64,000 nt of DNA from assembly GCF_000734895.2 (NCBI RefSeq), contig NZ_CP011382.1, positions 372,001 to 436,000 of the forward strand, given 5' to 3'. This document shows, piece by piece, positions 8,973 to 57,165 of the stretch. The notes below the pieces were generated by a model. It saw only the letters and a program-made list of their open reading frames with translations, was not told the origin of the DNA and did no database searches. Position 1 is the first letter of the stretch. Every line of letters starts with the position of its first letter. The stretch is from Calothrix sp. 336/3 (GTDB taxonomy: Bacteria > Cyanobacteriota > Cyanobacteriia > Cyanobacteriales > Nostocaceae). The position numbers and the translations under genes are program-made.

Positions 8973-9524
8973 TTAAGCTTTACGTCTGAATCTACGCCAC
9001 TGCGATCGCAAATACCGCCACTGCTCTGCCATGTGTAAAAACACCGCCGCCAAAAAAGTATAACCCAACCAAAAATGTAAATTTCTACCCAGTGCCCCCA
9101 ACTGTGGATCTACGGGAAAAAGCCGGGGTAAAACAATCGGAGTCGCAAAAACTACCACATCATGATTACCAGCATTGGACATCATATAACCACTGATGGG
9201 CATAAACAACATAAATCCGTACAAAAAACTATGCAAAATTAAACTTTGCCACCATTCCCTAGTTGCTTTTGGCTTACGGTAACGATACTTATGTCGTAAA
9301 ACAGCTAACAAGACAACGATTCTTGCTAGTAATAAGCTCATCACTACCACACCCAAGGTTTTATGAAAGTCGTAAAACAACCTCCGATAGGGAGCATCCC
9401 CCAAGAAGTTTGCCATATAAGTACCACCAATAAATAGCAGCAGAAAAAAAGCTGCCATCAACCAATGCAGAAACCACAAACGTTGAGCCGCAGATTTTTT
9501 CTTAACTGGTTTTACTGTGGTCAT
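8973..9524 (-). CDS. Cytochrome b561-like di-haem membrane protein
   Basis: A 183-residue protein with four predicted membrane helices (about 18-38, 52-75, 95-115 and 148-168). Histidines placed for b-haem ligation lie in these helices: H20, H54 (FHKTLG), H98 (LILHSF), H150 (HFWLGY) and H164 (FLHM). This is the layout of bacterial cytochrome b561 proteins, which pass electrons between quinones and periplasmic acceptors or superoxide. Both termini are very basic (KKKS at the start, RSQWRRFRRKA at the end), which fits cytoplasmic ends. It stands alone, converging with the hybrid kinase gene, so the partner is not indicated by context. Confidence 0.85.
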   Translation of the reverse strand: MTTVKPVKKKSAAQRLWFLHWLMAAFFLLLFIGGTYMANFLGDAPYRRLFYDFHKTLGVVVMSLLLARIVVLLAVLRHKYRYRKPKATREWWQSLILHSFLYGFMLFMPISGYMMSNAGNHDVVVFATPIVLPRLFPVDPQLGALGRNLHFWLGYTFLAAVFLHMAEQWRYLRSQWRRFRRKA

Positions 9525-9889
9525 TTTTACTACTCCTAAATATCAAGACTCGCTGCAAAATGCGGGAAAGCTAAAACCGACGTTGCATTTATCTTGCTGT
9601 ATGCAAGTTCATCAGTGAGTATTCCTATAAAATATCTGAAAAATATATATTAGGGTAGCAAGGCTAAAGAGTTTTTGCATATAAGCATCATATTTGACTT
9701 TTGAAAAACATCTAGGGTACTGTATAACTCTAGTGGTGAGCTACAGCGAAGCTTGACAAGCCTAAAATATTACATCCAAGTCAAAGCGCGGAAACGTCAA
9801 ATTTTTTCTATAGTATCATTGCAGCGTACCATCTCACCACAACATCTAGTACCTTATCGTATAAGTTGTGATAGGTAAAAAATGTGTAC

Positions 9890-9908
9890 TGGGAGTGTCT
9901 CGCTCCCA
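9890..9908. repeat. Short palindrome TGGGAG-loop-CTCCCA
   Basis: Six-base perfect stem (TGGGAG / CTCCCA) around a seven-base loop, followed by AAATTTT. It could work as a weak terminator, but no gene reads into it directly. The stem ends are the same as those of the terminal repeats of the element at 56051-56156, so it may belong to the same repeat family. Confidence 0.5.
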
Positions 9909-9947
9909 AATTTTAGGAATTAGACAATACTTCCGCGTGAATCGTTC

Positions 9948-9976
9948 GCAGAGCATCTTCTCAGGAGATACGCTGC
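9948..9976. repeat. Imperfect inverted repeat, 11-base arms
   Basis: GCAGAGCATCT and AGATACGCTGC form an 11-base stem with two mismatches around a seven-base centre. It resembles the interspersed palindromic repeats common in filamentous cyanobacteria. No coding function is visible. Confidence 0.5.
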
Positions 9977-10211
9977 CAGCAGTAAAGTATCAAAATTAAG
10001 TAGGATAGACCTCTAGGTTTTTTTAATCACCAAACCAGAGCTTCTATAGCTTTTTTAGGATAAAACTTATTATCCCATAAAAGATGCAATCCCACAGAAT
10101 ATACCTGTGAGTTGCAATTATTATATAAATATAATTTTAAGTATTGGGAACCTATCTATAAAAACTGAATAGCCATGCTGTAGGAGGAGCGAGAGTAAAA
10201 TTGTCTTTTTC

Positions 10212-54724: not shown

Positions 54725-56044
54725 ATGACTACCAAACCAAAAATTATTGTCCTGGATGACGATCCCACAGGTTCGCAAACAGTCCATAGTTGCTTGTTGC
54801 TGATGCGATGGGATGTGGCAACCTTACGCACTGGGTTACAGGATGATGCACCAATTTTTTTTGTATTAACGAATACAAGAGCTTTGCCTCCAGAGGCAGC
54901 AGCAGCAGTTACTAGGGAAGTTTGTCAAAATCTCAAGGTAGCATTAGCAACAGAAGGAATTAGGGATTTTCTTGTGGTTAGTCGCTCCGACTCCACCCTA
55001 CGGGGACATTATCCCATCGAAACCGACGCGATCGCCGAAGAATTAGGTGACTTTGATGCCCATTTTCTCGTTCCTGCCTTTTTTGAAGGGGGAAGAATCA
55101 CCCGCGATAGTATCCACTACCTAATAGTTGATGGTGTACCAACACCAGTACATGAAACAGAATTTGCCCGGGATTCCGTCTTTGCCTACCATCACAGTTA
55201 TTTACCAGAATATGTAGCAGAGAAAACCCAAGGGAAAATCCCCCCAGAGCAGGTGGAAAGATTCCTACTGGCAGATATTCGCCAGGGTTGTCAAGAAAGG
55301 TTAATGCAATTAACTGGAAATCGCTGTGGGGTAGTAGATGGGGAAACCCAAGCTGATTTAAATCAATTTGCCACAGATATTCTCAGTGCCGCAAGTCAGG
55401 GTAAAAGGTTTTTATTCCGCAGCGCCGCCAGTATTCTCACCGCTTTGGCAGGTTTACCCCCCCAACCCATTGCCCCCGAAAATATGGCTGAGTACGTGCG
55501 AGAAGGTAAGCCAGGGGCAGTAATTGTCGGCTCCCATGTGAAAAAGACTACTCAGCAGTTAGCAGCGCTTCTAGAAGCAGAGGGAACCGCAGGAATTGAA
55601 ATAGATGTTAGTCGCTTAGTTAATGATACAGGAGCGGAGTATCAACAATTACTCGATGAAGTGTTACAAAATGTACATCAATTCCATCTTGCGGGTAAAA
55701 CCCCTGTAGTCTATACCAGTAGACAAGAGTTAACTTTTGTGGATGTGAAAACTCGTCTTGACTTTGGGGCGAATGTTTCCGCTTTATTGATGGATGTTGT
55801 GCGCGGTTTACCGGAAGATATTGGCTTTTTAGTCAGCAAGGGTGGCATTACTTCCAACGATGTGTTGAGTACAGGGTTAGCTTTAACCTCCGCACGACTA
55901 CTGGGACAAATTTTAGCAGGTTGCTCCTTGGTACGAACTGCCCCAGAACATCCCCAGTTTCCCAATTTACCAGTGGTGTTATTTCCCGGTAATGTAGGTG
56001 ATAGCAATGCTTTAGCTACGGTTTATCGCCGATTGAGTAAATAA
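54725..56044 (+). CDS. Four-carbon acid sugar kinase family protein (DUF1537)
   Basis: A 439-residue protein with the N-terminal signature IIVLDDDPTGSQT of the OtnK/DtnK (DUF1537) kinases. The sugar-binding N-terminal domain has VSRSDSTLRGHYP and FFEGGRIT. The nucleotide-binding C-terminal domain has VSKGGITSNDVL and LVVLFPGNVGDSNAL-like sequence (here PVVLFPGNVGDSNAL). Characterised members phosphorylate four-carbon acid sugars such as erythronate or threonate in catabolism; here no dehydrogenase or aldolase is adjacent, so the substrate is open. It follows the membrane protein gene at seven bases. Confidence 0.9.
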   Translation: MTTKPKIIVLDDDPTGSQTVHSCLLLMRWDVATLRTGLQDDAPIFFVLTNTRALPPEAAAAVTREVCQNLKVALATEGIRDFLVVSRSDSTLRGHYPIETDAIAEELGDFDAHFLVPAFFEGGRITRDSIHYLIVDGVPTPVHETEFARDSVFAYHHSYLPEYVAEKTQGKIPPEQVERFLLADIRQGCQERLMQLTGNRCGVVDGETQADLNQFATDILSAASQGKRFLFRSAASILTALAGLPPQPIAPENMAEYVREGKPGAVIVGSHVKKTTQQLAALLEAEGTAGIEIDVSRLVNDTGAEYQQLLDEVLQNVHQFHLAGKTPVVYTSRQELTFVDVKTRLDFGANVSALLMDVVRGLPEDIGFLVSKGGITSNDVLSTGLALTSARLLGQILAGCSLVRTAPEHPQFPNLPVVLFPGNVGDSNALATVYRRLSK

Positions 56045-56050
56045 TACACC

Positions 56051-56156
56051 TGGGAGTATCCCAGTAGTGCAGGCATCCTGTCTGCTTTAGTTATGAAAGT
56101 AGGGAGAAAAATGCTCCTACTACCGTCTTTATTTTTGCAAAATTGGGATGCTCCCA
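56051..56156. mobile_element. MITE-like element with inverted ends and flanking direct repeats
   Basis: A 106-base non-coding unit whose ends are TGGGAGTATCCCA (56051-56063) and TGGGATGCTCCCA (56144-56156); each is inverted relative to the other with one mismatch. TACACC occurs immediately outside both ends (56045-56050 and 56157-56162), as expected of a target-site duplication. Inside are two more hairpins: GCAGGCATCCTGTCTGC (56069-56085) and one formed by GTAGG and CTCCTAC (56099-56120). It fills almost the whole spacer between the DUF1537 gene and minC. No coding capacity. Confidence 0.65.
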
Positions 56157-56187
56157 TACACCTTAACCCTTTCCCCTTCAATTCGGT

Positions 56188-57165
56188 ATGTTTCCTGATT
56201 TAGACGCTAATTCTGCGGATGCAGAACCTATTTCCTCTCTGACTCATCTAGAGGCAGAATCAAGTAATCCTGTGCTTCCGGATGTGGAAGTTGAATCTGT
56301 TTTGCTGTACCTCAAGGAAAATACTGAGATTCCCCCATCCGTTGAGGAAGAAAAACCAGAAATTCCGGCTGAGACTTCCGAAATAGAGCTAGATTTAGAT
56401 TCCCTTGATGCACCTTTACCGGAAGGAAAGGTAAAACAAAATGTACAAGTACAGATTAAGAGTGAGGCAGAAAGATTATTACTAATTTTACCCACTGAAT
56501 CCCAATTACCAGCTTCTGAGGTCAGTTGGTCAGAAATGTGGCAACAGTTAAAGGTACGATTGAATGGTAGCGATCGCCTGCGTATACCCCATGTAACTGT
56601 TCATCTGTTAGCTGGCGATCGCCTCCTGGATACCCGACAATTACAAGAATTAGCCGAAACCCTCAAGGATATAGATTTACATCTGAAGTCGGTGGCAACT
56701 AGTCGCAGACAAACGGCGATCGCTGCGGCAACTGTGGGTTACTCAGTCGAGCAAATTCAACGGGAAAACACCCTCGCTTCCCCTCCCCAAACCACCACCG
56801 CACCCCTTGCTGACCCCCTGTACGTGGAAATGACTGTACGTTCTGGTGTCGATATCCGTCACCCTGGAACGGTAATTGTTATGGGAGATGTCAACCCCGG
56901 TGGTAGTATTGTCGCCGATGGTGACATCCTGATTTGGGGAAGATTAAGAGGTTTAGCCCACGCTGGGGCAAATGGCAACCGCGATTGCCTAATTATGGCA
57001 TTGCAAATGGAACCGACTCAATTACGAATTGCCGAAGTTGTCGCCAGAGCTCCCGAAAAATCACCGAGTCAGTTTTATCCTGAAGTAGCTTATGTTACGG
57101 AACAGGGAATTAGGATTACTCGCGCGGTGGATTTTTCTAAAGCTGTGTTATCGAGAAATTCTTAG
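56188..57165 (+). CDS. minC: Septum site-determining protein MinC
   Basis: A 325-residue MinC, the FtsZ inhibitor that keeps division away from wrong sites. The N-terminal about 75 residues are an acidic Glu/Pro/Ser-rich tail. An N-terminal domain at about 85-190 (SWSEMWQQLKVRLNG; HLLAGDRLLDTRQLQ) precedes the C-terminal right-handed beta-helix (about 212-310; VRSGVDIRHPGTVIVMGDVN, PGGSIVADGDILIWG, LRGLAHAGANGN). In most cyanobacteria minD and minE follow directly. Here the next genes are an opposite-strand toxin-antitoxin-like pair, so minD and minE must be elsewhere. The start is an ATG. Confidence 0.93.
   Translation: MFPDLDANSADAEPISSLTHLEAESSNPVLPDVEVESVLLYLKENTEIPPSVEEEKPEIPAETSEIELDLDSLDAPLPEGKVKQNVQVQIKSEAERLLLILPTESQLPASEVSWSEMWQQLKVRLNGSDRLRIPHVTVHLLAGDRLLDTRQLQELAETLKDIDLHLKSVATSRRQTAIAAATVGYSVEQIQRENTLASPPQTTTAPLADPLYVEMTVRSGVDIRHPGTVIVMGDVNPGGSIVADGDILIWGRLRGLAHAGANGNRDCLIMALQMEPTQLRIAEVVARAPEKSPSQFYPEVAYVTEQGIRITRAVDFSKAVLSRNS

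Follow-up and report, generated by a model that had tools for sequence, protein, structure and literature searches.

The Calothrix sp. 336/3 genome (6.42 Mb in 4 contigs) holds the stretch of 64,000 nucleotides analyzed here, which we refer to as the window. Toward the end of the window, a gene of the four-carbon acid sugar kinase type, whose product scores under the cut-offs of the NCBIfam kinase models that it matches, is followed on the same strand by minC (Table 1). The spacer between the two genes contains a 104-bp element (56052-56155) with the ends GGGAGTATCCC/GGGATGCTCCC, terminal inverted repeats of 11 to 13 bp with one mismatch. An 8-bp direct repeat, ATACACCT, borders both sides of the element, and the first A of its left copy is the final base of the kinase stop codon. 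The initial annotation had described 13-base ends with one mismatch, a span of 106 bases, the hexamer TACACC outside both ends, and 31 bases up to the minC start. The ends (56051-56063 and 56144-56156), the span, and the distance to minC are all present. TACACC is likewise present on both sides, but the repeat is really 8 bp, not 6; the boundary had been placed one base outward on each side.

The interior of the element consists of two palindromes arranged head-to-head with their GTAG tags outward. The second lies within 3 mismatches of the REP of the family, and a search of the first against the family REP pattern at 3 mismatches gave 0 matches. No ORF of at least 90 amino acids is present inside the element. 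The left end is incomplete, with about 21 bp missing behind position 12, before the first REP. Head-to-head GTAG REP dimers are known in filamentous cyanobacteria (accessible part of PMC3733652).

At up to one mismatch, the end motif GGGAGCATCCC occurs 6 times in the 64-kb window, compared to 0.82 expected. Two of the six matches face each other at the kinase-minC element, and four are unpaired. An exact match at window position 9390 has no partner end.

Table 1. Features of the kinase-minC locus and interiors found within related ends
Feature	Position or locus	Strand	Remarks
Upstream gene, four-carbon acid sugar kinase type	54725..56044	+	SBD_N and NBD_C domains
Left target-duplication copy ATACACCT	56044..56051	+	Direct repeat
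Left terminal inverted repeat GGGAGTATCCC	56052..56062	+	Family consensus GGGAGCATCCCAAATGTGTAAATT
First REP-type palindrome, outward GTAG tag (GTAG TGCAGGC..GTCTGC)	56064..56085	+	GTAG head-head dimers, accessible part of PMC3733652
Second REP-type palindrome, outward GTAG tag	56102..56123	-	3 mismatches to GTAGTGGGAGCATCTTGCTCCC; 0 in 100 shuffles
Right terminal inverted repeat, subterminal part intact, GGGAGCATCCCAATTTTGCAAAAA on minus strand	56132..56155	-	Same end on the L400 insertion sequence
Right target-duplication copy ATACACCT	56156..56163	+	Direct repeat
Septum site-determining protein MinC gene, downstream	56188..57165	+	Same strand as the kinase gene
Terminator-like sites	56069-56085 and 56064-56050	+ and -, respectively	Both in the element; third site in minC
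Interior with GAAGGACACGAAGG or close form	L108, L109, L236, L237, L309, L139		Same ends or a few bases off
Interior with TGTCATGCTGA-type palindromes	L138, L238, L239		Same ends or a few bases off
Interior with short palindromes	L264, L266		Same ends or a few bases off
Another interior	L119		Same ends or a few bases off
Interior with TGTCATTGCGAG-type palindromes	L019 (own genome), L145, L146, L148		Only first 10-12 end bases in common
Further interiors	L117, L142, L154		Only first 10-12 end bases in common

A multicopy family with duplicated targets

A sequence search that excluded the query's own place detected other copies of the element in the Calothrix sp. 336/3 genome (e.g., E values of 1e-9, 3.6e-9, and 9.8e-7). 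A genome search for the ends, which the initial annotation had proposed, returned 11 matches to a 23-base end pattern at up to 2 mismatches and none to the control. The copies inspected in this genome are diverged and badly preserved. Among relatives, 38 of 60 genomes contain the end pattern when 2 mismatches are allowed; with 1 mismatch allowed, it was found in 151 of the 217 family genomes scanned, representing 46 of 56 genera. Neither genome set includes another member of the genus. One genome (G002) contains 145 ends at up to 2 mismatches. The control for these scans was the reversed pattern, which gave 0 matches in every genome listed. Named records with the same ends come from Nostoc, Anabaena, Sphaerospermopsis, Goleter, Scytonema, Brasilonema, and Scytonematopsis. 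Three plasmid records match the family, and a search of phage records gave no match.

Many of the matches in relatives stop at query position 656 or no more than a few bases from it; this position corresponds to window position 56155, the right edge of the element. Typical full copies have the form GGGAGCATCCCAAATGTGTAAATTTA - cargo - TTTTTGCAAAATTGGGATGCTCCC. An alignment of nine sequences gives the window copy 71 to 78% identity to each of the other eight, counted over the bases that it aligns; the six copies taken from other genomes match one another at 85 to 98%. Tandem arrays of MITEs were also seen (L102 235-486 and L094 286-610), with one 8-bp target sequence common between the units; in L094 the later units have no left end. 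In another copy (L096, about 41-272), the inner repeat ATTAGGGAGCAAGATGCTTGAT is expanded.

Target duplications were assessed at 61 insertion sites. Among these are the window copy, both tandem units of L102, and members of related subfamilies whose ends differ in part. These were obtained from 129 raw end pairs by dropping pairs that end at the inner REP stem (82 left) and containing pairs (77 left), reducing the remainder to 65 unique sites, and merging one repeated site. The duplication is exact over 8 bp at 30 sites and over 9 bp at 11; 12 more sites have an 8- to 9-bp duplication with one mismatch, and 8 sites have none of this length even when one mismatch is allowed. Among 3660 mispaired flanks used as a control, there were two 8-bp duplications and no 9-bp duplication. 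The exact 8-bp duplication at the kinase-minC element is thus of the length typical for the family.

The locus had initially been read as a MITE-like insertion with a target duplication, with the proviso that the element might occur only once or that the TACACC repeat might be a coincidence. Neither is the case: the family is multicopy, duplications of 8 to 9 bp recur at other sites, and an insertion sequence with the same ends exists, as described below. The kinase-minC element is a real MITE.

Insertion sequences with matching ends

A transposase flanked by matching ends, which the initial annotation had suggested looking for, was found in a relative. The element (L400; G072 contig 109, 8753-10525) is a 1773-bp ISKra4-family, ISMich2-like insertion sequence with the left end GGGAGCATCCCAAATGTGTAAAA, the right end GGGAGCATCCCAATTTTGCAAAA, and an 8-bp target duplication (aattgttc). 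Its left-right asymmetry is that of the MITE, and it is the autonomous element with the exact MITE ends, found in one genome only. The transposase matches NF033572 with 277.8 bits (cut-off, 205) and is encoded by two minus-strand frames that overlap at 1584-1692, the second frame lying one base back. The overlap spans a nine-base homopolymer (1627-1635). Taken by itself, the first frame matched no NCBIfam model. In the ISMich2 group, the transposase is encoded by two ORFs joined via a -1 frameshift (accessible part of PMC3942029), and the frame arrangement of L400 is that of a putative frameshift of this kind. Placement of L400 in the ISMich2 group is suggested by its frames, size class, and ends, not by a tree. 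L400 also contains an extra ORF at 232-714 on the same strand as the transposase; the part searched (235-642) has no Pfam or NCBIfam match. In this it differs from the ISMich2 elements covered by the accessible part of PMC3942029, which are all plain insertion sequences.

The ends are associated with ISKra4 transposases more generally. At up to 2 mismatches, an inward-facing end core lies within 400 bp of the transposase at 14 of 30 ISKra4 loci but only 1 of 34 ISL3/IS1595 loci, and within 60 bp at 9 of 30 versus 0 of 34. Paired ends with a duplication were found for 16 distinct ISMich2-like elements of 1166 to 1227 bp (18 of 53 entries, two copies appearing twice), with duplications of 7 bp in one, 8 bp in seven, and 9 bp in eight; a pair was listed only if the duplication was at least 7 bp, or 8 bp with one mismatch and few end mismatches, and 35 of the 53 entries gave no pair. 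ISMich2-like elements other than L400 have the first 10 to 12 end bases in common with the MITE, and some also have a T run followed by GCAAA in their ends.

Neither one profile nor one protein query (E up to 10) detected an ISKra4 transposase in the Calothrix sp. 336/3 genome. Twenty stretches beside seemingly unpaired ends proved to be MITEs or lone ends with no match to three ISKra4 proteins. IS1595 and ISL3 had at first been suspected as parents from the 8- to 9-bp duplication and the GGG ends, but IS1595 (PF12762, in 3 of 60 genomes) and ISL3 (PF01610, in 32 of 60) were both rejected on the counts given above for their 34 loci. An element that we take to be IS1-like was also rejected as a parent. 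It splits a MITE copy of the own genome (L088, about 154-1020; C1, about 768353-769220), inside which it is bounded by separate ends and by a separate 8-bp duplication (aaaatttg). The split copy has lost its right end.

Cargo of the ends and alternative origins

REP pairs are one of several interiors found within these ends. Other copies, with asymmetric ends that are the same or differ at a few bases, contain GAAGGACACGAAGG-bearing repeats or close forms of them, among other interiors, and additional interiors occur where only the first 10 to 12 end bases are common (Table 1). Interior repeats of the TGTC type are presumably kin of CGTC-type REP. The interior of L019, in the own genome, gave 22 matches there, some of which are neighboring pieces of one place; 18 have no end core within 140 bp (up to 2 mismatches), and 4, including L019 itself, have one. 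The inner REP stem GGGAGCATCTTGCTCCC and the end GGGAGCATCYCA (e.g., in L095) have their first 9 to 10 bases in common.

REP-matching sequence also occurs in a second inverted-repeat shell with the arms ATAAGTTGTGATGGGTAAAAATGTG ... AACTATCAAAATTAATGACA. An arm of this shell was found at 13 of 30 REP-matching loci in the own genome (30 loci taken from 42 matches to a REP-bearing query), compared to 1 of 30 in the control. The window contains one copy at 9846-10016 (CTAG...ATAAGTTGTGATAGGTAAAAAATGTG ... AAGTATCAAAATTAAG...CTAG), with 5 mismatches per arm to the typed arms and a REP-like stem at about 9888-9910. The related stem that had been pointed out at 9890 is kin of the interior REP palindrome of the kinase-minC element, but it is unrelated to the ends and belongs to a different repeat.

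These observations bear on the alternative that a RAYT (Y1 HUH) transposase moved the whole structure as a REP/BIME cluster, with the outer GGGAGCATCCC palindrome a mere target of the REP pair. The GTAG tags are outside and in head-head order, REP-matching sequence is found in a second shell as well, and in the accessible part of PMC3733652, many GTAG-15 dimers of A. variabilis are surrounded by long palindromes. The own genome encodes one RAYT-like protein, from the sole Y1-type transposase gene found there (PF01797; L310 1102-1878), but it scores below the curated cut-off (70.5 versus 80 bits), and no clear REP palindrome was seen by eye beside the gene. The duplications are at odds with this alternative in that they sit outside the GGGAGCATCCC ends, whereas, to our knowledge, Y1 transposition produces no target duplication. 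Furthermore, the same ends and duplications occur with interiors other than GTAG REP pairs, and the same ends enclose a transposase gene in L400. A RAYT origin is thus largely refuted for the outer ends, and we regard it as very unlikely for the element as a whole. RAYT activity may account for the entry of the REP pair into the shell. For REP pairs and the other repeats, insertion into the shell or capture by the ends may have occurred, and both fit.

That selection maintains the element for a role in minC regulation, as promoter, terminator, or attenuator, is more improbable still. The element occupies the spacer to within 32 bp of minC, its strand folds better than 200 of 200 shuffles (z = -4.5), and terminator-like sites number 3 compared to 0.3 expected from shuffles, two of them in the element. 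However, the nested inverted repeats that characterize the family lead to hairpins of this sort and to a strong fold. The initial annotation had supposed that the element may carry a promoter, but a scan of the element region, which covers the sigma-70-like type only, found none, and an Rfam search of the element gave no match. An effect on minC expression is therefore put here as a possibility only. At 17 of 19 parsed orthologous loci (plus-strand loci only, 19 of 29), minC follows the kinase gene within the fetched flank. No end pair (up to 2 mismatches per end) was detected at any of the 29 orthologous loci, all from other genera, in a search that did find the window's own locus; a stricter search gave the same outcome. 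The relatives compared are about 70 to 78% identical over the kinase end. The window copy is also decayed relative to its family. A chance inverted repeat beside a chance hexamer, for which one could cite the shortness of the ends and their mismatch, is refuted by the family, the duplications, and the parent element and has next to no probability.

We consider it very probable that the 104-bp element is a decayed nonautonomous MITE with ISMich2-like (ISKra4) ends and a REP-pair cargo. Given the loss of about 21 bp behind the left end and the failure to detect an ISKra4 transposase in the genome, it is most likely immobile and neutral, and the copy is probably a fossil. Its ISKra4 transposase, which we take to be of the Mutator-like DDE type, would have acted in trans on the two asymmetric ends, giving insertion at the kinase stop codon with duplication of 8 bp of target. 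The head-to-head GTAG REP palindromes would be cargo and would not belong to the transposon proper. If the kinase gene and minC are cotranscribed, the mRNA would contain a stable hairpin 33 to 136 bases before the minC start that could modestly change minC output.

Relation to known elements and meaning

Nezha, reported by Zhou et al. in 2008, is a cyanobacterial MITE of A. variabilis and PCC 7120. It resembles the elements described here in being a cyanobacterial MITE, as far as the papers citing it describe it. A genome scan with the exact pattern found 45 stretches, only in Goleter, Scytonema, Brasilonema, and Scytonematopsis; it demanded exact ends in one genome per species and does not settle kinship with Nezha. 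The MITEs of Anabaena sp. strain 90 can be set beside the window MITE by description, not by sequence. In the group shown, their inverted repeats fall into three sets, and 132 of 147 are intergenic. They are classed as type II because that genome yielded no insertion sequence whose ends resemble theirs (accessible part of PMC3542288).

The family resembles the ISKra4/ISMich2 group in its ends and its 8- to 9-bp duplications, and L400 adds an NF033572-type transposase over two frames. In contrast to an ISMich2 insertion sequence, the window element is 104 bp long and contains a REP pair but no gene. The ISMich2 group belongs with the p-MULT 4 Mutator-like DDE transposases (accessible part of PMC3942029). 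The cargo resembles the GTAG REP dimers in the accessible part of PMC3733652 in having two palindromes with outward GTAG tags. It differs from them in that the surrounding palindrome consists of the paired ends of a DDE insertion sequence, flanked by target duplications, and is not the same in sequence as the palindrome given in that paper. We found no description of ISKra4-derived MITEs in cyanobacteria in the searched literature, including the accessible parts of PMC3733652, PMC3542288, PMC10969869, PMC3942029, PMC9208149, and PMC3852290; most subscription literature lay outside the search.

Tentatively, and with somewhat less than even confidence, we propose that ISMich2-type ends form an interchangeable shell, that this shell has repeatedly taken up unrelated palindromic intergenic repeats (GTAG REP pairs, TGTC-type repeats, and others), and that a DDE transposase has carried them across the family. 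Some of the REP load would therefore travel without RAYT, and transposon ends would make up the long palindromes described around REP dimers. The occurrence of one end pair with differing REP-like cargo bears on how REP sequences spread, and the end sequences supplied here are testable. For minC, the element is probably an ordinary neutral insertion; for the cyanobacteria, these results link a widespread repeat to a named transposase family.
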